Source: Azospirillaceae bacterium (GTDB lineage: Bacteria; Pseudomonadota; Alphaproteobacteria; Azospirillales; Azospirillaceae). Taken from it: a DNA stretch of 64,000 bases. The position numbers and the translations under genes were made by a program. Of this stretch, positions 52,874 through 63,156 are shown one piece after another. The notes beneath the pieces were generated by a model. That model did no database searches, was not told the origin of the DNA, and saw nothing but the letters and a program-made list of their open reading frames with translations. The first letter of the stretch is position 1. Each line of letters begins with the position of its first letter. The DNA lies in assembly GCA_035645145.1 (NCBI GenBank), contig DASQNC010000069.1:1-64000 (forward strand). Reading direction: 5' to 3'.

Positions 52874-52947
52874 GCGGGTGTAGCTCAATGGTAGAGCAGA
52901 AGCTTCCCAAGCTTACGACGAGGGTTCGATTCCCTTCACCCGCTCCA
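52874..52947 (+). tRNA. tRNA-Gly (anticodon CCC)
   Basis: The 74-nt cloverleaf has acceptor GCGGGTG / CACCCGC, D-loop TAGCTCAATGGTAGAGCA, anticodon loop TTCCCAA (anticodon CCC), TPsiC arm GGGTTCGATTCCC, and an encoded 3' CCA. The first anticodon-stem pair is a G/A mismatch. The accessory block starts immediately after it, so the gene is a plausible integration site, though no second copy of its 3' end was found in the window. Confidence 0.95.
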
Positions 52948-53102: not shown

Positions 53103-54899
53103 TCACAGCAGGGCGTAATAGTGCCGGATCTTTTCCGCCATCAGCTTCCGGCGGGCATCCAGGAACGCCTCGTAGTCCGCTCCCAGAGAGCCGAAGACGG
53201 CCTCGGGAATGCAGTGTTGGCGCAGGTTCTCTATCAGCTCGTCATGCTCGGTGATGCCGCCGTAGCGCGGCACCTTGGTCTCGCACTGGGCCAGCAGGTC
53301 GGCGAAGTAGGTGGACGGCGCGCGGTCGCTGATGCGGATGTTGATCTCGCTCTGGGCGACGGCGAAGTTGGCAATCTGGTTGTAACGGCCGCGGCTCAAC
53401 CCCTGCTTCTTCAGCAGGCTGCGGGGGAAGATGTGGTGAACGTCGCTCTTGTTCAGGATCAGATCCTGGACCGTGATGTCGCGCGACAGGAACCCCCTGT
53501 CCCCCATCTTCACCTGGGCCGCCAGGAACACCAGGAACTGGGGGCTTGAGGCGGAGGAGGTTTCCATCTGCTGGGGCAGCAGCGTGCTCCAGAAGCCCTC
53601 CGACAGCTCGCCGGCGACCACACTGTCCACATAAGCGCCCGGGCCGCGTCCCTCGATCTGGCGGATGTCGAAGTCGAAGGCGGTCTCCGGATTACCGGCG
53701 TAGCGTCCGGTGAGCACCGACATGACGTACCAGCGCCGCACCATGCGCTCGATCGCGGCCGGGTCCATGCCGGTGGCCTTGCCGCGCAGGTAGAGGATGT
53801 AGGCGAAGTTCACCGCGTTCTTGCCGCCGATCAGGTCGCTGCTGACGAAGCCGGCCGAGCGCAGGATCATCACCAGCTGCTTGAAGCTGGTTTCGTTGAT
53901 GAACCGCACAACGCCCTGGCGCAGTCGCGCGAAGCTCTCCTCGGCGATGGCGTCCTCGTACTGCTTGGTCTCGAAGTTGCGGCCGGACAGCAGGGCGACC
54001 AGATCCTGCAGCTTGCCGCGACCGAATTCGCTGGTGAAGGCGACCCGCAGCATGTCGGTGTAGCTGGGATCGTAGATGTCGTCCTGCACGTTGCGCAGCC
54101 ATGCCATCTTCTGGAAGTAGTCGGTTGCCGCGAATGCTGCGTCCCGCCTCGTGATGGTGCCATGGAAGTCCGGCTGCACCGCCATGTGGCAGAAATACTC
54201 GATGGCCTTGCGCAGGGCGTTGCCGCCGTAGCTTTCGTTGGCGGCGATCTTCGACATGGCGAAGTCCGCTTGGCTGAGCGCCGCGCCGGCCGAGTTCACG
54301 CGGATGAAGATCTCGGTCACCGTCTCGATGTCGAGATCCTCGGCCAGCTCGATGATGCCGATGTGGTTGTTGACAATGCCGCGCAGCCGCTCGATGCGGC
54401 GGAACAGCTCGTCCTGCCCGATGCCGGGATTGGCCGCAGCGTACCCGTTCACCAGGCCGAAGACGCTGGCGCCCGGCCGGAAGACCTCCGCGATGTCGGG
54501 GATCCAGGCGGCGTCTTTCTGGATGGCGGGGTTGGAGACCTCGAACTTCTCTTCGACCGGGTGGAACGCGATGCGGATGCGGACCGACTCGTAGTCCTTG
54601 GTCAGCACCTCCTGCCCCAGCAGCCCCGCCATCAGCGCCGTCACCCGCTGCTGCCCATCGATCAGGATGCGCTTGCCGGCCGATAAGGTGCCGTCCTTCA
54701 GCTTCACGTTCGGATTCCGCCAGGCGATCAGGTAGCCCACGGGAAAGCCCTTGTAGAGGCTGTCCAGCAGGTTGCGGACCCGCGTCGCGTCCCAGACGAA
54801 AGGCCGCTGGATCTCGGGGATGGCGATCTCCCCGGATTTGACCCAGGCCAACAGGGTGTCAATGGGGTGCGGGGCGACGGAGTAGCGCTGGGTGGACAT
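53103..54899 (-). CDS. DUF262 + HNH nuclease protein (GmrSD/SspE-like)
   Basis: A 598-aa protein. The N-terminal DUF262 ParB-like domain has [22 protein letters not shown] and the hallmark [12 protein letters not shown] (D81-G-Q-Q-R). The C-terminal part contains [14 protein letters not shown] (about residue 486) and NQIANFAV, the HNH core seen in DUF1524-like nuclease halves. Such fusions (GmrSD, BrxU, SspE) are NTP-stimulated enzymes that cut modified or invading DNA. It is 50 bp downstream of the dGTPase gene on the same strand, likely one operon. The exact target is unknown. Confidence 0.85.
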
Positions 54900-54949
54900 G
54901 GGCTGGCGACATCGGTGGGTGGTGATAGGGAACGATTGACTGGCGCAAC

Positions 54950-56236
54950 CTACAGCTCGTCGTGGCTCGAACCGGTTCCCGGAATAAACAGGCGCTTGTA
55001 GATGCGTTCGGCAAACGGGTCGGTCATACCGGCGATGTAATCGCAAACCCGCCGTTCCCGCGAGTCGCCAGGGTTAAGGAACGTCCAGGTCTGCATTGGA
55101 ATCAACCGCTCGGGATCCTCCAAAAGTGCATCGAAGAGGCGTTCCACGATCCTCTGGCCCCGATGCTCAAGCTGCTGCACCTCCGCCCGTTGAACAACGA
55201 GGTCATAGGTGAGCTGCTTGAGCTGCTTCAACAAAGCCGCTATTGGCGCATCGAAGCAGGCACGATAACGGAGGAGCGGATGGTCGAAGGCGGTCTCCTG
55301 CTTCACTGTCACCGAGGTGATGAAAAGGTGGACCAGCTTACCAATCAGCTTCTTCCGGTTAGCGCTTTCGTTGCTGAAAAGGTTTGTTGCGAAATCTTCA
55401 AAGCTAACTGCCTTTTCGCCAATACCAATGATCCGTCCATTATTGTTAAACAGATTTTTCAGTGCCTCAAGAGACTCATCTTTTTGGATGAGATGACGTG
55501 CAACAACATCTTCCAAATCATGGACGCCATAGGCTATGTCGTCCGCACACTCCATAATCGAGCAATCTAGTGTACGATGGCAAGGTTTCCCATCTCCGTC
55601 GCGGCTTTCCCGAAATATCTTAATCTCACCAGGACGGAATGGAAGACGAAGCATCCAGTTAACTATATCATCTTCGGTATCAAAATAACACTTTGGCGGC
55701 TTACTAGTGTATTTATCCATTTGGAAAGCGGACATCGGTGCCGGGTATTTAAGGACGGCTAGCAAAAGCCGGCGAGTTGGATTCATACCCTGTCGAGGTC
55801 TGTACTTTTCAAGCCGTGTTAAAATTCTTAGGGTCTGCCCATTCCCTTCAAACCCACCGAAATCCAACATCCTGCGATGGAGGGCTCTCTCCCCGCCGTG
55901 GCCGAAAGGGGGATGCCCGAGATCATGGGCATAACATGCCGCTGCAATCAGTTCATTTGACGGAAACCATGTCTGAATTTCCGAATCGGCAGGGTTCCGC
56001 TTTTTCAGCGAACCAACAATGCCCTCGCCGATCTGCGCTGCTTCAATTGAATGGGTCAGCCGCGTGCGGTGGAAATCCCCCTCACCCACGCCCATGACTT
56101 GGGTTTTTGCCTGGAGCCGCCGGAATGCAGCGGAATGGATGACCCTGGCCTTGTCACGTTGGTACTGGTCTCGCTCGTCGTCCTCCCTGAGCGGTTCCGC
56201 TCCCCAAAATCGGTCTTCGAATGCGACCGTATCCAT
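54950..56236 (-). CDS. dGTP triphosphohydrolase (HD domain)
   Basis: A 428-aa dGTPase-type HD hydrolase that splits dGTP into deoxyguanosine and triphosphate. Metal ligands: H62 ([14 protein letters not shown]), H104-D105 ([16 protein letters not shown]), and the Asp of [21 protein letters not shown] lies 5 nt before ATG 56236, which decides the start over an in-frame GTG. Mid-gene GC (about 55300-55800) is much lower than in the core, a sign of transfer. Next to a nuclease in an island, an antiphage dNTP-depletion role is likely; housekeeping dGTP control is the alternative. Confidence 0.88.
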
Positions 56237-56442
56237 GACCACTCCTGATAGAATTCAGATGGATAAACTTACCAGGGTTTAGGACCATAGTGCCTATCTT
56301 TGCAATGCTTGGTTGCTCCAACTAACCCGGTTTTTAAAAGTCCCTGGGCGACGCTCCAACCGATGCCGCCCACCACCTGCATTGCCACATCCCTCACGAG
56401 TGGCATTGCCCAAGCGGCTTCCAGACCGGAATGAGACTGGCC
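56237..56442. other. Upstream region of the dGTPase with a broken small ORF
   Basis: A minus-strand frame ending at 56269 encodes about 45 residues (MPLVRDVAMQVVGGIGWSVA and following). It is cut on its upstream side by the IS5-family fragment. I do not recognise it. The dGTPase ribosome-binding site and probably its promoter are here. Confidence 0.35.
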
Positions 56443-56620
56443 CAGGTAGCGTCTGACGAAAGTGCCGGCCGCCCGTTGGATCGGGCTCACATTTCAATAG
56501 CGGCGGCGATGCGCGGACATAAATTGAGCAATGCGCAGTGGGCGCTGATCTCCTACCTGGTGCCGGTGCCGGTGCCGGGTGGCGCGGGCGGCCGCTGGCG
56601 TAACCAAGGCTGGAGGGTTG
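56443..56620 (+). mobile_element. 5' fragment of an IS5-family element
   Basis: From AGGTAGCGTCTGACGAAAG (terminal repeat) onward the sequence follows the left end of the IS at 60304. It includes the transposase start (RGHKLSNAQWALISYLVPVP), with many substitutions and a small duplication. Similarity fades after GGAGGRWRN. Same orientation as the 60.3-kb copy. It is a non-functional left-end relic. Confidence 0.8.
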
Positions 56621-56800
56621 GTAACTCGGCCGCGCGTACTTGCTCAGGCGCAACGGCACGATGCGTTGCGCAACCCCGCTACCGCCAGCCGCGCGACGCT
56701 CCAGATTGGATTGTCCATGATACCCCAGAGCTGGGCATCAGTTGCTTAGGTTTCGAGACTTTCGACAGAGCAAGGCGCTCCTAGTCGGGTCGAAGGTCAT
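56621..56800. other. Unassigned stretch after the IS fragment
   Basis: No gene or repeat is recognised between the IS fragment and the stop of the nuclease gene. Confidence 0.3.
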
Positions 56801-57820
56801 CTACCTCACCCGGTACTCGCGGATACGCGTATGCTCGATCAGCAGGTGCATCGTGGTGAGCGTGAACACCTTACCGTCTGTTGCCTGGAGCAGACGACGC
56901 ATGTCCTCGCGCCGCACCTTGAACCCGCGCCCGGCGATGCAGGCGATCACGTCGTAATCCTTGCCCAGCTCGTCCCGCAGCGTGCGCAGCCGCTGCACGC
57001 GGGCAACCTTGTCGCGCGCCGTGCCGTCGTCCTCGGTGAGTTTCGCCTCGATCAGCGCCACTGGCGTGAATTCATCCGGGATGATGAAGTCCGGAGCTTG
57101 GTCGAATCCCGGAATACGCTCGGCCCTCTTCGTCTCGCGGAAGCTGACTTTGGCTTCCGAGAGGACGTTTTTGACCGCGACCTCGACAACCTCGCCGACT
57201 AGCTCGCTCACCGAATCACGGTGGGTCGCGTAGGGCCTTCCCAAAAAGCGCTCGTAGAGCAGCACAGGATAAGGCGCACCAAGATCGGCGATGGACTGAA
57301 GGCTCTTAAGTCCGTGCGCCGTGTCGGCCTTGTCCAGTCGGTGAACGATGCCGGGCGGAACCACGCCCGCGCCCTGCGCGATGGTGCTCACCCCGGCCTC
57401 AATCATCGCCCGGATGCGTATGGCGGTGACGCCGTTGGACTCCACCAAGGGCGTCAGGGGCTTCATGCGCATTCTGCGGTCGATGGTGCGCGCCGCGCCT
57501 TGATCGACGGAAACGCCGGTCATCTCACTCGTCACATACGCCCACTCGGGCGGCGAGAAACCGAGCATGCAGCGGAACACGATAAAAGCGATCGGCACCT
57601 CGCGCACGGCAGCGAGCACTGTCTCTGGCGTGAGCGCAGCGAAAGCATCGGTGCTGCGCTTGAGCGCCTGATAGCCTTTCTCGAAGGTCGGGTAATCGAT
57701 GAAGCCTTCGCCCTTGGGCATTTCAATGAAGCTGGATTTCAGCTCCCCAAACACCTCATCGACAAGTGGCTCCCACGCAATCGCGGGGTCCTGGTAATCG
57801 ATCTCAAAACGCAACGGCAT
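56801..57820 (-). CDS. PD-(D/E)XK-type nuclease, putative restriction endonuclease
   Basis: A 339-aa protein I do not recognise as a named family. The C-terminal 130 residues show a PD-(D/E)XK core: an acidic helix SELVGEVVEVAVKNVL (about 205-220), PDFIIPDEFTPVALIEAK with P243-D244 and E258-A-K260, then a helix DKVARVQRLRTLRDEL and strand DVIACIAGRGF. The N-terminal 200 residues are mixed helical without a known motif and could recognise DNA. AAGGA lies 6 nt before ATG 57820, which overlaps the methyltransferase end by 17 bp. The coupling and the methylase neighbour suggest the cutting subunit of a restriction-modification system. Confidence 0.75.
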   Translation of the reverse strand: MPLRFEIDYQDPAIAWEPLVDEVFGELKSSFIEMPKGEGFIDYPTFEKGYQALKRSTDAFAALTPETVLAAVREVPIAFIVFRCMLGFSPPEWAYVTSEMTGVSVDQGAARTIDRRMRMKPLTPLVESNGVTAIRIRAMIEAGVSTIAQGAGVVPPGIVHRLDKADTAHGLKSLQSIADLGAPYPVLLYERFLGRPYATHRDSVSELVGEVVEVAVKNVLSEAKVSFRETKRAERIPGFDQAPDFIIPDEFTPVALIEAKLTEDDGTARDKVARVQRLRTLRDELGKDYDVIACIAGRGFKVRREDMRRLLQATDGKVFTLTTMHLLIEHTRIREYRVR

Positions 57821-59999
57821 CACGCATCCTTTCTTCTGAGTCTGCCGCTGCGAAGAGCGGACCCGCCGGAGCGGGCGACCGCTTGCCGGAAATCAGAAAT
57901 TCGACGAGTTGCTCAGGATCGGCGAGGCGCGATACGGCCTTCCCGAACAGCTCCAGCTTTTCAAAAGTCGGCAGGCTGCGATCCCAGCCCACCCTGAGAT
58001 TCCACACGGCCATGCGGGTCAGATGGCCGAACACGATGCAGCGTGTATCGCCCTTGGTCGGCTTGCGCCCGGCTTCGACAAGCTGCGCGAGCTCGCGCGC
58101 AACGATGTGGGCGAGCTCTTCTGCCGAGGTGAAGAGCCATTGCCGGGGCATCTCGCCTTTGTTGCGGCAGACGAACACGGTATCAACGATGGAAGAGGCG
58201 GTGCCGTGAATGTGGATCGAGCCGCCCATTTCGGCGGGGCACGGCAACGATGCCGAGCAGGTCAGCCCCGCGTCGAGGATGGCGATGCCGACTGCGTAGT
58301 AGGCTTCCAGCTTGTTGTGATGATAGGTGAACACGAGCGGTGCGCTCGGTTTCAGCGCCTCCGCCATGCGCGTGTAGACGCGCGCGAGGCCTTCGGTGAA
58401 GTGGTCGAGCCCGCGCGATTTTGTAACGTTGCCAGTCAGTTCTTCGGCAGCGCGCGTTGAGAGCCGGTCAAATCCTTCCGCCTCGGTGCCGACGAGTTTT
58501 CGCAGCCAGACGTAGCAAAAGTCCATCAGCTCGCCGTACTGCACGTTCCCAAAGTACGGCGGGTCTGTGAAGACGGCGTCGAGACTGCCTGGCGCAAGCT
58601 CCACTTCTGTCGCATTGGTGCAATGGATGGCGACGTTGCGCCGCCGCGCCCCATTCAGCCGCTCGCCGATCCATTCGCCTTCGATGGGCACCTGCACCTT
58701 ACGCGAGCCGGTCTGAAGCACCTCGAAGGGCGCATCGCAGTAGCGTTTCGCCTTTGCGTATTTCTCGATGATATTCGTCCAGCCGCCCGAACCGACATTC
58801 GTGGCATTGCGGTTTATGATGCCAAGCAAATTGGACTCGCACTGCACGAGGCCCACGGGGAAGCCGTGCACCGAGAAGATATCAAGGGACTTGAGCGCCC
58901 AGGTGTCATAGCGGCAGAGCATATTCTGATAGCGCAGAAGGTCCGAGAGATTGGTTGCGAGCGCATGGCGCACGCGCTCGTCCGGAACTTCATGGATAAT
59001 GCGGCAGCTTAACTCCAACCCGAGGAGCTGACGATCACTGAACATCTGCCGGTAGTGGCTGTAGCCCCAGCGACGCAGCCGGTCGGTCTCATCGCCCGGC
59101 AGGATTTCCTGGTCGGGAACGAACCGCGCTTCCGTGCGGTCCCAGCGCTCCTGCGCAGCTACGACGCGCGCCAAATCCTTTGCATCTGGCTTCTTGAAGA
59201 AACGCCCCTTGTGCCCCGCCTTCCGGCGCGGATTGTAATACTCAATGGCGAAGAGGCGGTGGCGCAGCGGCCCTTCCATAGCGCGCGGGTAGCGGTTCTC
59301 GTAGCCGCAATGAGAACAGGCGCAACGGCCTCGTCCTGCCGGTCCTTCGGTGCGGAGCGCGGCCTTACAGCTATGGCATGCGCCAGGGTTCTTGCGGTCC
59401 GCCACTTCATTGAGGTCGCCGCAGTCCGGGCAGACGAGGACATTCTTGGGATGCCGGGAGTCCTCGGAAATCAGGTAGCCGGGGAACAGGTCAATGGGTT
59501 CTCCGCACGACTTGCAGTCGAGCACCTTGACCCACAGGAAGTATTTCACGGGAACGTCGGTATCGCCGTAGAGTGGGCAGTCCGTCACATAGAGCGCGCC
59601 GATCTCGGCGCGCAGCCTGCCGAGCAGCTTCTCGGCCTGCGCTTGGTAGGCGGCCAGATCGAGATGCTCGATCTCCTCGCGCACGATCCATGCGGCCATC
59701 GGGTTAATATCGAAGCCCGTCACATCGCAGCCGATGCGGTTCGCCTCGATCAGGGGGGTGCCGCCCCCCATGAACGGGTCGGCAACCTTGCGTCCCGGAA
59801 AGTCATTTGCCCTAAAGTAAATGTCGGCCAGCGGCGCATCGCCGAACTCGGACAGGGCCAAGGCACGGAACAGTGTACCTGGACGCCGCGCAAACCACTT
59901 GTGGACGGCGATGATAGGCCGGTAGTTCTGCTGTATCTGCTTCTCGCGCAGGGCGAGCCCCGCGACAAACGGAATATTGAACCGGGTCTCAATGCTCAT
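57804..59999 (-). CDS. Adenine-type DNA methyltransferase with zinc ribbons (COG1743/DUF1156-like)
   Basis: A 731-aa amino-methyltransferase. N-terminal YRPIIAVHKWFARRPG (about 26-41) matches DUF1156-type enzymes. The AdoMet motif I is DPFMGGGTPLIEANRIG (74-90), with FDINPMAAW after it. The catalytic motif IV is DAVFTDPPYFGNVQYGEL (DPPY 479-482). Between I and IV are four CxxC pairs (C162/165, C190/193, C208/211, C228/231), two zinc ribbons; order I-TRD-IV is alpha-class. It starts inside the RHH gene (11-bp overlap) and overlaps the nuclease gene. It probably protects host DNA from that nuclease. Confidence 0.85.
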   Translation of the reverse strand: MSIETRFNIPFVAGLALREKQIQQNYRPIIAVHKWFARRPGTLFRALALSEFGDAPLADIYFRANDFPGRKVADPFMGGGTPLIEANRIGCDVTGFDINPMAAWIVREEIEHLDLAAYQAQAEKLLGRLRAEIGALYVTDCPLYGDTDVPVKYFLWVKVLDCKSCGEPIDLFPGYLISEDSRHPKNVLVCPDCGDLNEVADRKNPGACHSCKAALRTEGPAGRGRCACSHCGYENRYPRAMEGPLRHRLFAIEYYNPRRKAGHKGRFFKKPDAKDLARVVAAQERWDRTEARFVPDQEILPGDETDRLRRWGYSHYRQMFSDRQLLGLELSCRIIHEVPDERVRHALATNLSDLLRYQNMLCRYDTWALKSLDIFSVHGFPVGLVQCESNLLGIINRNATNVGSGGWTNIIEKYAKAKRYCDAPFEVLQTGSRKVQVPIEGEWIGERLNGARRRNVAIHCTNATEVELAPGSLDAVFTDPPYFGNVQYGELMDFCYVWLRKLVGTEAEGFDRLSTRAAEELTGNVTKSRGLDHFTEGLARVYTRMAEALKPSAPLVFTYHHNKLEAYYAVGIAILDAGLTCSASLPCPAEMGGSIHIHGTASSIVDTVFVCRNKGEMPRQWLFTSAEELAHIVARELAQLVEAGRKPTKGDTRCIVFGHLTRMAVWNLRVGWDRSLPTFEKLELFGKAVSRLADPEQLVEFLISGKRSPAPAGPLFAAADSEERMRDAVAF

Positions 60000-60192
60000 T
60001 GGTTAGGCCCCGCTTGTCTCGTTCTTTATCTGTAGCTGGGCCGTCCGGCGCTCCTTGATGGCGATCAACGTAGGCGCGCATGAACTCGCGGATGACCTGC
60101 GCCGCCGGTCTGTCCTGAGCCCGGCAGGCCTCGAGAAACCGGTCGCGCAGATCGCGCTGAACCCTTATGCGTAGCCCCGCGTCCTTCATCAT
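59989..60192 (-). CDS. Ribbon-helix-helix regulator of the methylase-nuclease operon
   Basis: A 67-aa protein with an RHH pattern: strand GLRIRVQRDLRDRF, helix LEACRAQDRPAA, helix QVIREFMRAYVDRH, then a charged tail. Such proteins dimerise and repress their own promoters. It is the first gene of the operon; its last 11 bases overlap the methyltransferase start, so it is stoichiometrically coupled. The 110 bp between its start and the IS left end must hold the promoter. Two adjacent ATGs (60192, 60189) are possible starts. It could instead be an antitoxin-like inhibitor. Confidence 0.75.
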   Translation of the reverse strand: MMKDAGLRIRVQRDLRDRFLEACRAQDRPAAQVIREFMRAYVDRHQGAPDGPATDKERDKRGLTNEH

Positions 60193-60303
60193 GGGGATGG
60201 TGTAGCCATTGGATACACAAATGCCTAGGGAAAATTCGTGGCCATCCCCGGCAGGCAAAGCACCCGGCTCTACCAAGTTCGGTTGAAGAAGCATCGAAAG
60301 GCT

Positions 60304-61178
60304 TAGGTGGCGTCTGACGAAAGCGCTGGCCGCTTGTTGAAGAGGGCTCACCTTTCAACGGAGGCGGCGATGCGCCGGCACGAATTGAGCGATGCGCAGT
60401 GGGCGCTGATCTCCGAGCTGATGCCGGTGCCGGGTGGTGCGGGCGGCCGCTGGCGCAACCACCGCCAAGTCGCCAACGGCCTGTTCTGGAAGCTGGGCAC
60501 CGGCGCGCTACGGGCCGTGGCAGACCGTCTACGACCGCTTCGTGCGCTGGCGCCGCGCCGGCCTGTTCGACCGCATGCTGGAGCGCCTGCACCTGCGGCT
60601 GAACGCCGAGGGCCAGATCGACTGGCAGGTCTGGTGCGTCGATGCCACCAACATCCGCGCCAGCCAAGCCGCGGTGGGCGGTGGAAAAAGGGGGCTCCGG
60701 ACGAACCGGAAGACCACGCCCTCGGCCGCTCGCGCGGAGGCTTCGGCACCAAGCTCCACCGGGTGACCGACGGGCACGGCTTGGCGCTGGCCGCCGTGGT
60801 CACCGGTGGGCAGGCCGCGGAGCTGCCCCAGCTTGTGGCGTTGCTGGCCGCGGTCGGGCGGAATCGCTCCCCCACCCACCTGTTGGGCGACAAGGCCTAC
60901 AGCAGCCGCGCCGCACGTAGCTGGTTGCTGGAGCGGCAGATCCTGCCGGTGATCCCGTTCCGCAGCGACCAGCAGCGCTCCTGGCACTGCCGCACCCTAC
61001 GGTTCAGTCGACGCCTCTACCGCCGGCGCAACGTCATCGAGCGCTGTGTGGGATGGCTCAAGCATTGCCGGGCGCTCGCGATCCGGATCGACAAGCTGGC
61101 CGTCAACGTCCTCGCCTGGGTCAAACTGGCCATGGTCCGGCAAGCGCTGCGGAAACTCTGTCCGCCAGACGCTACCTA
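60304..61178 (+). mobile_element. IS5-family (IS427-like) insertion sequence, damaged
   Basis: The left end TAGGTGGCGTCTGACGAAAG and the right end (inverse complement TAGGTAGCGTCTGGCGGACA) are imperfect terminal repeats of about 18-20 bp. The element of about 875 bp encodes an IS5/IS427-type DDE transposase in pieces. The target duplication is at most 2-3 bp and cannot be read with certainty. Its right end supplies the last codons of the next minus-strand gene. Same orientation as the fragment at 56443. Confidence 0.88.
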
Positions 61179-61179
61179 G
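60370..61179 (+). pseudogene. IS5-family transposase, split in two frames
   Basis: Frame 1 starts RRHELSDAQWALISELMPVP and runs to FWKLGTGA; the usual PWRDLPE is missing there. A frame change gives RYGPWQTVYDRFVRWRRAGL to WCVDATNIRASQAA with the first catalytic Asp. A second change near GGAAAAAGGG (about 60683) restores KGAPDEPEDHALGRSRGGFGTKLH, LLGDKAYSSRAAR (second Asp) and NVIERCVGWLKHCRALAIR (Glu). The second site is an A-run, as used for programmed frameshifting in this group; the first looks like a real deletion. So it is probably inactive. Confidence 0.8.
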
Positions 61180-61660
61180 TCCACTCCCAATTGCCGCTTG
61201 AGACGGTTTGATTATGACGAGATCCAATCCACATACCTTCAGCTATTGTTCGTGACTCATGCACTCGCATTTTGAAGGTTCCAAAATATCCAAGGCTTTG
61301 GCAATCCTGCCATGCCCCAGTGATGTGATTTCTATTCATACGTCCGTAAAGTCTGTACTTGTAATGCTCTCCAGTTTTTGAAATTACATCGTATTCGCCA
61401 GCAATATATCCTCCAAACTGCTTTATAGTTAATGTGCTTCCGTTCTGAACTGGAAAGTTTGAACTTTGCTGAGCCACCCAGCATTGGTTCCACTCGCCCG
61501 ATAGCACTCCTTGGCGCCGCGTCTTTTCGAATATCCAGAAGAATGCTCTTATCACGTGGTACCCTGTCCATTCCTCGAATAGAGGCTGGAGCCAAGCTCC
61601 AGCCACAGCCGAAACCAGTCCGCCAAGCACCAGCCCAGTTAAAAAGTTAATTATTTCCAT
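61172..61660 (-). CDS. Membrane-anchored beta-rich small protein, possible defence effector
   Basis: A 162-aa protein, not recognised as a known family. Residues 3-27 form one membrane helix (INFLTGLVLGGLVSAVAGAWL). From about residue 50 on it is strand-rich with Gly/Trp turns (GEWNQCWVAQQSS, LTIKQFGGYIAGEYDVI, YRLYGRMNRNHITGAWQD, AEGMWIGSRHNQ), like a small beta-barrel. The last two residues and stop come from the IS right end, so the original C-terminus is lost or altered. Low GC, unlike the core. The helix-plus-barrel design recalls Cap15-type effectors, but no cyclase gene is near. Confidence 0.6.
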   Translation of the reverse strand: MEIINFLTGLVLGGLVSAVAGAWLQPLFEEWTGYHVIRAFFWIFEKTRRQGVLSGEWNQCWVAQQSSNFPVQNGSTLTIKQFGGYIAGEYDVISKTGEHYKYRLYGRMNRNHITGAWQDCQSLGYFGTFKMRVHESRTIAEGMWIGSRHNQTVSSGNWEWTR

Positions 61661-61970
61661 ATTTACCTACCAATTTCCGGAAGATAGCCTTCGTCGTTGG
61701 CATGTCGCAGCATTTTACAACATAACATTTTAGAGAGGTCATCAGAGTCCGTCTAGGTTCTGCGTCGTCGCCTCGCATTCCCTCACAGATGAGCGCCAGC
61801 TTGTCCCTGCCTGAAAGCGTTCGCTCGCTGCACTCGAGCGGGCACAATTGGAACCATCCGCGCAGCTTGGTGATGCGGAATCTCTCCGTAGGAGGATGGA
61901 TTGTGAATGTGAGACGCAGAAGCGCACAGATAACCAAAAATAGTATCCGACTAAGCTGCTATCACTTTCC
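61661..61970. other. Low-GC stretch upstream of the membrane protein gene
   Basis: A 96-codon minus-strand frame (61647-61937) ends by overlapping the next ATG by 14 bp, which would be typical of coupling, but its sequence has no recognisable domain and poor codon use. I treat it as unproven. The rest is probably promoter DNA. Confidence 0.3.
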
Positions 61971-62255
61971 CTATCCGCCCGCCCCATCCACATCATCCAC
62001 CCGACAAACCGCCCGCACCACCACATGCGGTCGGGTGCGCAGGCGGTAGTTGCGGATCTCCACGCGGCCGTTCGCCTCCAGCCACGCCAACGCACGTTGG
62101 ACGTCCGCGTCGGTGATGCCCAGCTGGTCGCGGATGTGGTTGAACGGCACGGCCACCGCGTTCGGGTCCAACAGGCGGTTCCGGCACACCTTGGCGACGC
62201 GGTTGGCCAGATCGGTGATGTCCTCGCCCCGGCCCAGCGTGACGACGGTCCCCAT
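61971..62255 (-). CDS. Small winged-helix DNA-binding protein
   Basis: A 94-aa protein. Residues of about 30-85 form a winged helix: AVPFNHIRDQLGITDADVQRALAWLEANGRVEIRNYRL (in parts). The strand-wing end RTRPHVVVRAVCRV follows. The N-terminus (VVTLGRGEDITDLANRVAKVC) is helical. GC returns to the core level here, so the island probably ends just before. The target is unknown. Start ATG 62255. Confidence 0.7.
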   Translation of the reverse strand: MGTVVTLGRGEDITDLANRVAKVCRNRLLDPNAVAVPFNHIRDQLGITDADVQRALAWLEANGRVEIRNYRLRTRPHVVVRAVCRVDDVDGAGG

Positions 62256-62424
62256 GGAGAGCACCCTCCCTGTCCGCTCCCCGGCGGGTCTGTGGATCAA
62301 GGTCCTTCCCGCTTTTCCGCCTTTTCCTCCCAGGGCGCGGGTTCGCCTCTCCTGCCCGCTTCGCCCTCCATAACCCGCGGAGCCCGGCGTTCGGCTCGGC
62401 GCCGCCGGGCGGAATTTGGAGGGA

Positions 62425-63156
62425 TCAGGCCGCCGGCGCCTTGGCCTTCTGGCCCGCGACCACCGCAGCATAGTCCACCAGCGCCTGCCGGCCGGCGGGG
62501 GTCAGGGCATACAGGCCACGCCCGGTCCGCTCGAACCAGCCATAGACGTTGCGGCGCAGGATGGTTGCGGCCTTGTCCACGCCCGTCGTCTTGCGGATCT
62601 CGGCCGGGCGTGCCGGTTGTTCGCCGCGGGCGGCCAGCGCGTCGGCACAGCGCAGCGCGTCCTCACGGTACGCGGTGACGATCGTCCGCTTGGACGAGCC
62701 GCCCACATTGTGGTCGCCGCTGCGGCGGGTGAATTCGCCCAACAGCCGGGCGCGCTTCTTCGGCTGCTTGCGCGGGCGATAGGGCGCCGGGTCGGCATGG
62801 ACGAGCACCCGCCCGTCCCGCACCGACAGCAACCCCAGCCCCAGCATCCGGCACAGCCGCACCGCGTCGGGCAACTGCGCGTCCCAGTTCCGCCGGGCCG
62901 TGCGGCCGTCCGGCGCCGGCACGGCCACATAGGCAAGGTCCACCGCTGACAGGCGCCCAAGGGCCTGGTAGAGGACGGGCAGGCCGAAGGTCCGCTTCAG
63001 CTCGACCGCCAAAACCGTGTCGTCCCGCACCGCGACGACGTCGCAGTCGGCGACCTCGCCCCGCACCTCGTACCCGGCGTTGGCCAGGAACGCCCGCACC
63101 GGGGCGTAGAGGTCGCTTTCCCGCGAAAGGGACGGCATGGATCCGGTCGGTCCCAT
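62425..63156 (-). CDS. DUF2161 putative PD-(D/E)XK phosphodiesterase
   Basis: A 243-aa protein. The N-terminal half is a PD-(D/E)XK-like fold: LYAPVRAFLANAGYEVRGEV, D39 in ADCDVVAV, and E52-L-K54 in VLAVELKRTFG. A basic linker (RPRKQPKKRARLLGEF) joins a C-terminal winged helix (TTGVDKAATILRRNVYGWFERTGRGLY in parts). This matches the widespread alphaproteobacterial DUF2161 family of unknown role. An internal ATG at 63138 is an alternative start. It lies 20 bp downstream of the M32 peptidase gene. Confidence 0.85.
   Translation of the reverse strand: MGPTGSMPSLSRESDLYAPVRAFLANAGYEVRGEVADCDVVAVRDDTVLAVELKRTFGLPVLYQALGRLSAVDLAYVAVPAPDGRTARRNWDAQLPDAVRLCRMLGLGLLSVRDGRVLVHADPAPYRPRKQPKKRARLLGEFTRRSGDHNVGGSSKRTIVTAYREDALRCADALAARGEQPARPAEIRKTTGVDKAATILRRNVYGWFERTGRGLYALTPAGRQALVDYAAVVAGQKAKAPAA

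Follow-up and report, generated by a model that had tools for sequence, protein, structure and literature searches.

C-protein Type II restriction-modification (R-M) systems, such as PvuII, Esp1396I and Kpn2I, encode a small DNA-binding regulator together with a methylase and a nuclease, and the regulator is a helix-turn-helix protein whose own start lies near a palindromic site. The restriction enzymes BstEII and BsoBI cut unmethylated sites. For methylases of the DUF1156/COG1743 group, the literature (PMC7641849, PMC12839542) describes a DUF499 ATPase and a SWI2/SNF2 helicase as neighbours, and PD-(D/E)XK nucleases have been reported nearby in the DUF499-centred BREX-related (Hma) systems (PMC12839542). 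Finally, ribbon-helix-helix (RHH) repressors lead three-gene toxin-antitoxin operons, and repression has been shown for two of them, Omega and PaaR (PMC3874152).

The window, i.e. the whole stretch of 64,000 nucleotides analysed, contains three minus-strand genes that lie where the original prediction had placed them and overlap by the 11 and 17 nt given there. The first (59989..60192, (-)) encodes a 67-aa RHH protein, a probable autoregulator, assigned by its match to PF19839 (RHH_9) and by homologues preceding the same pair of genes in loci L013 and L056. The second (57804..59999, (-)) encodes a 731-aa DUF1156-related putative N6/N4 amino-DNA methyltransferase, and the third (56801..57820, (-)) a 339-aa protein predicted to be a PD-(D/E)XK restriction endonuclease. 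The RHH gene overlaps the methylase gene at 59989-59999, and the end of the methylase gene overlaps the start of the nuclease gene at 57804..57820 (-). Ribosome-binding sites had also been claimed; AAAGGA does lie 6 nt 5' of the nuclease ATG, but no Shine-Dalgarno sequence directly precedes the RHH start, where a palindrome is found instead. With considerable confidence, the locus can be regarded as a mobile Type II R-M system whose RHH protein probably represses its own operon. The pair agrees with a Type II system in each test that could be applied: methyltransferase and endonuclease are encoded by separate, linked genes; the nuclease is predicted to possess the appropriate fold and catalytic residues; and no ATPase or helicase subunit belongs to the conserved unit, which consists of two genes, or was recognised among the scanned neighbours.

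The nuclease, used as query against 84,980 species genomes, identified 38 loci spread over many phyla, for instance Methanomicrobiales, Cyanobacteria, Acidobacteria, Verrucomicrobia, Planctomycetota and Proteobacteria, with methanogenic archaea among the carriers of the methylase-nuclease pair. Nearly all intact loci have a homologous methylase gene directly upstream of the nuclease gene and in the same orientation, and the two are adjacent in most of the 38. A gene overlap of exactly 17 nt is shared by 27 of the 28 readable pairs, a count made up of 19 of 20 pairs from the first set, the window, four pairs from whole-genome searches and three from viral contigs; most pairs also show a Shine-Dalgarno-like stretch 6-7 nt 5' of the nuclease ATG. 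When 398 genomes sampled from the phylum were searched, the nuclease and methylase profiles matched the identical five genomes and no others. On plasmids, the nuclease search recovered only one distant relative. Such adjacency with an exact 17-nt overlap, recurring across phyla, is more than chance. Together with the predicted restriction-enzyme fold of the nuclease and the other methylase partners of its relatives, recurrence and co-occurrence give good support to the earlier proposal that methylase and nuclease are an R-M pair. The trees of nuclease and methylase both cut across phyla, as expected for horizontally moving genes. Identity ranks hinted at reassortment of methylases and nucleases between clades, which tree tests did not establish (the methylase A+B clade was not rejected, p 0.063).

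The claim that all three genes form one system holds for the methylase and nuclease, which are the fixed core, and fails for the RHH gene, which precedes the pair in a minority of loci (about 6 of 36 testable) and belongs there to two unrelated families. The RHH gene is therefore an optional addition, not essential to the system because it is missing from most relatives. In the window it matches RHH_9 at 24.0 bits, narrowly above the cut-off of 23.4. Homologues precede the pair in L013, where the overlap with the methylase start is again 11 nt, and in L056, where it is 4 nt; an unrelated CopG-type RHH gene precedes the pair in L005, L010 and L032. In about 30 other testable loci, no RHH gene before the pair was detectable by the two RHH profiles. 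This absence, and the boundary of an IS5 element about 108 nt upstream of the gene in the window, would fit a passenger, or a stranded antitoxin or partition gene, with no role in the R-M pair. That explanation is unlikely, though it deserves to be kept in mind: homologous RHH genes occupy the same place and overlap the methylase start in L013 and L056, a second RHH family occupies that place in three further loci, and a conserved palindrome precedes the RHH start.

This near-perfect 19-nt palindrome, GTGTATCCAATGGCTACAC (60200..60218, (-); 8 of 9 pairs), is a candidate RHH operator and is separated from the RHH start by 7 nt. The palindrome GTGTAnCCAnTGGnTACAC is common to the window and L056, with the same 7-nt spacing to the RHH start, and its score was reached by few shuffles (6 and 3 of 300). 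It is the sole copy in its own 3.9-Mb genome at two or fewer mismatches. L013 retains the right arm and has a degenerate left arm. The palindrome was also found in 14 viral contigs, one of which is the L056 contig; the 13 others were given no weight, as about that many may be expected by chance with 16 fixed bases. Since the palindrome before the RHH start is conserved and unique in the genome, self-regulation is the likeliest role for the RHH protein, and autoregulation through this candidate operator is likely. The original prediction had gone a step further and assigned the RHH protein a timing role in place of a C protein; the conserved palindrome lends this some support, but timing control beyond autoregulation is something that we infer. 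The nearest known parallel is provided by Omega and PaaR, where an RHH repressor gene likewise comes first, followed by antidote and toxin; those operons encode toxin-antitoxin pairs, whereas a methylase and a nuclease follow here and repression by the RHH protein is probable. With C-protein systems the locus shares a small DNA-binding regulator encoded with methylase and nuclease and a palindrome, here a candidate operator, near the regulator's own start; in contrast to the helix-turn-helix C proteins, the regulator is of the RHH_9 type (PF19839), comes first in the operon and is optional across the family. A TTCACC..GGTGA block is common to the regions upstream of the CopG-type genes (L005 3480-3630, L010 530-680 and L032 1465-1620). 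It is at best a possible operator of the second RHH family, its palindrome score being not clearly above that of shuffles. Scans with promoter and terminator consensus sequences gave no more than chance.

The methylase contains motif I (DPFMGGG, 74-80), four CxxC pairs (162-231) and motif IV (DPPY, 479-482), and the order motif I, insert, motif IV is that of one class of amino-methyltransferases. Its match to NF042963 (NCBIfam) reaches 104.7 bits against a cut-off of 1000, and that to PF06634 20.8 bits against a cut-off of 24; HmaB scores 85 bits and MethyltransfD12 24.2 bits. Judged by these motifs and scores, the protein is a short, divergent relative of the DUF1156/COG1743 methylases, with about 730 aa compared with 944-967 positions in the NF042963 and HmaB profiles. 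It resembles the methylases of DUF499-centred Hma systems in motif order, in the insert between motifs I and IV and in weak profile similarity; it differs from them in having about 730 aa instead of about 950, and in being partnered by one small nuclease rather than by an ATPase and a helicase. It had been remarked that COG1743-type methylases are better known beside large helicases, which agrees with the literature (PMC7641849, PMC12839542), yet compact relatives exist on plasmids. Methylase relatives of about 30% identity occur there, haloarchaeal members included, one haloarchaeal plasmid having a DUF499 gene nearby.

It is very unlikely that the methylase serves as modification subunit in a DUF499-centred, BREX-related (Hma-type) system that has lost its ATPase and helicase, with the nuclease as an auxiliary effector. 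Its weak relationship to NF042963 and HmaB and the PD-(D/E)XK nucleases near such systems (PMC12839542) speak for this origin; against it, neither a DUF499 ATPase nor a SWI2/SNF2 helicase was recognised among the window genes scanned (53103 to 63156) or in the scanned portion of the neighbours, the pair is intact and fixed across many phyla with an invariant overlap, and the methylase, at about 730 aa, falls short of the 944-967 positions of the profiles. Three of the compact plasmid relatives (Tabrizicola, Acidiphilium and Rhodococcus) are preceded by a different small protein family with a PDF...E(I/V)KG motif. This small family, with the motif GRNTYPDF...YE(I/V)KG, lies directly upstream of compact DUF1156-like methylases (L060 1543-2370, L061 4129-4947 and L063 5199-5948) and has no significant Pfam match; from the motif, it is possibly a second nuclease partner.

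In the nuclease, the residues PD243-244 and EAK258-260 named in the original prediction are present, and E213, P243, D244, E258, A259 and K260 are invariant in an alignment of 26 sequences. Searches of Pfam, NCBIfam and PADLOC gave no family above its cut-off; a sub-threshold Pfam match to TPD (E 0.003) covers residues 198-249. Sequence searches of solved structures with the single nuclease or its profile yielded nothing useful. The predicted model (mean pLDDT 82, pTM 0.55) shows the order helix-strands-helix-strand expected for a PD-(D/E)XK core. In Foldseek searches against the PDB, BstEII was the best match (E 3.3e-3, probability 1.0) and EcoT38I and BsoBI ranked next; VIA-align gave Z scores of 9.7 over 249 residues for BstEII, 9.3 over 242 for BsoBI and 7.9 over 125 for PspGI; the model also matches the Ecl18kI fold. 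The BstEII match is moderate (TM 0.35-0.39, with unrelated Rossmann-like folds at Z 6-7), covers the whole protein and stands in a match list headed by restriction enzymes. Structure prediction agrees with the PD-(D/E)XK nuclease proposed earlier for the third protein. The model resembles the Type IIP enzymes BstEII and BsoBI (PDB 9ibq and 1dc1) in its helical N-terminal part, its PD-(D/E)XK core and its similar length, whereas a profile search of PDB sequences detected no similarity of sequence to them. A nuclease relative of 31% identity that keeps PDF...ECK follows a PF01555 methylase on a Microbacterium plasmid, and in L022 a close relative that keeps PD...ExK follows another PF01555 methylase. 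As the methylase neighbour is kept while the methylase family changes, the nuclease looks as a restriction enzyme would. A modification-dependent nuclease (Type IV or IIM-like) that cuts marked DNA and is restrained by the methylase rather than opposed to it is highly improbable, for although GmrSD-type genes lie near some loci, the window included, the nuclease is constantly paired with amino-methylases, unrelated PF01555 methylases among them, and its overall predicted fold resembles BstEII and BsoBI.

Computation shows the genes of the Type II system and how they recur and co-occur, as well as the fixed overlap, catalytic motifs, predicted fold and conserved palindrome; the mechanism adds enzymatic activities, a target site, translational coupling and RHH repression, which we infer. 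The methyltransferase would modify host DNA at a specific site by methylation of an amino group, either N6-adenine or N4-cytosine, and the endonuclease, with its BstEII/BsoBI-like fold, would cut the same site where it is unmethylated, as on incoming phage or plasmid DNA. Methylase and nuclease, in this order, would form one transcriptional unit, and the 17-nt overlap probably couples translation of the nuclease to that of the methylase, so that the nuclease would not be made without the methylase. The RHH protein, encoded first, probably represses its own operon by binding the palindrome that immediately precedes its start.

Systems of this kind are familiar, and the combination of enzymes and regulator is undescribed in the libraries and papers searched. 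Papers on DUF1156, COG1743, RHH proteins with R-M systems and BstEII contain no description of it, subscription journals and REBASE lying outside the search. By the sources compared, the locus is best read as belonging to a Type II R-M family that is uncatalogued, stands here on a defence island and in some cases includes an RHH regulator. A broader proposal is put forward tentatively, with chances a little short of even: a widespread uncatalogued Type II family in which a fixed 17-nt overlap joins a DUF1156-like (BREX-type) methylase to a BstEII-fold nuclease, and into which RHH repressors from two unrelated families have been repeatedly recruited for expression control in place of C proteins. 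If true, BREX-type methylases would be linked to simple Type II restriction, and both RHH control and translational coupling could be studied in R-M systems on a tractable example. Possibly the nuclease also has a new cutting specificity.

The three genes have a GC content of 62%, compared with 69% for the window, and belong to a lower-GC stretch adjoining a tRNA-Gly gene (52874-52947). They sit between an IS5-family element upstream (60300..61182, (+); transposase 60307-61179) and, downstream of the nuclease gene, a remnant of the left end of a related IS5 element (56439..56606, (+)) that is 84-91% identical to 60300-60461 and in the same orientation; a past composite mobile unit is possible. 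Further IS5 fragments occur on contig C25 of the genome. Farther downstream on the same strand as the three genes follow an anti-phage dGTPase gene (54950-56242; NF041026, 497 bits, cut-off 400) and then a GmrSD_N/HEC-05-like gene (53103-54959). The nuclease was not found in 58 genomes of the same genus or family. In the sister genome G001, a GNAT gene and the tRNA are retained, and the 3 kb that follow contain nothing matching the island. The setting resembles that of a defence island acquired by transfer. A 162-aa ORF at 61172-61660, which has no match in Pfam, NCBIfam or PADLOC, shows a GC content of 46%, far below that of the window. In some relatives, GmrSD or ABC-3C genes directly adjoin the pair, either behind or in front of it, and some overlap by 4 nt (L010 4052-5767, L005 7038-10569, L008 1375-4408, L011 1981-3780 and L006 3343-3765), and the pair could work within larger modules in those loci.
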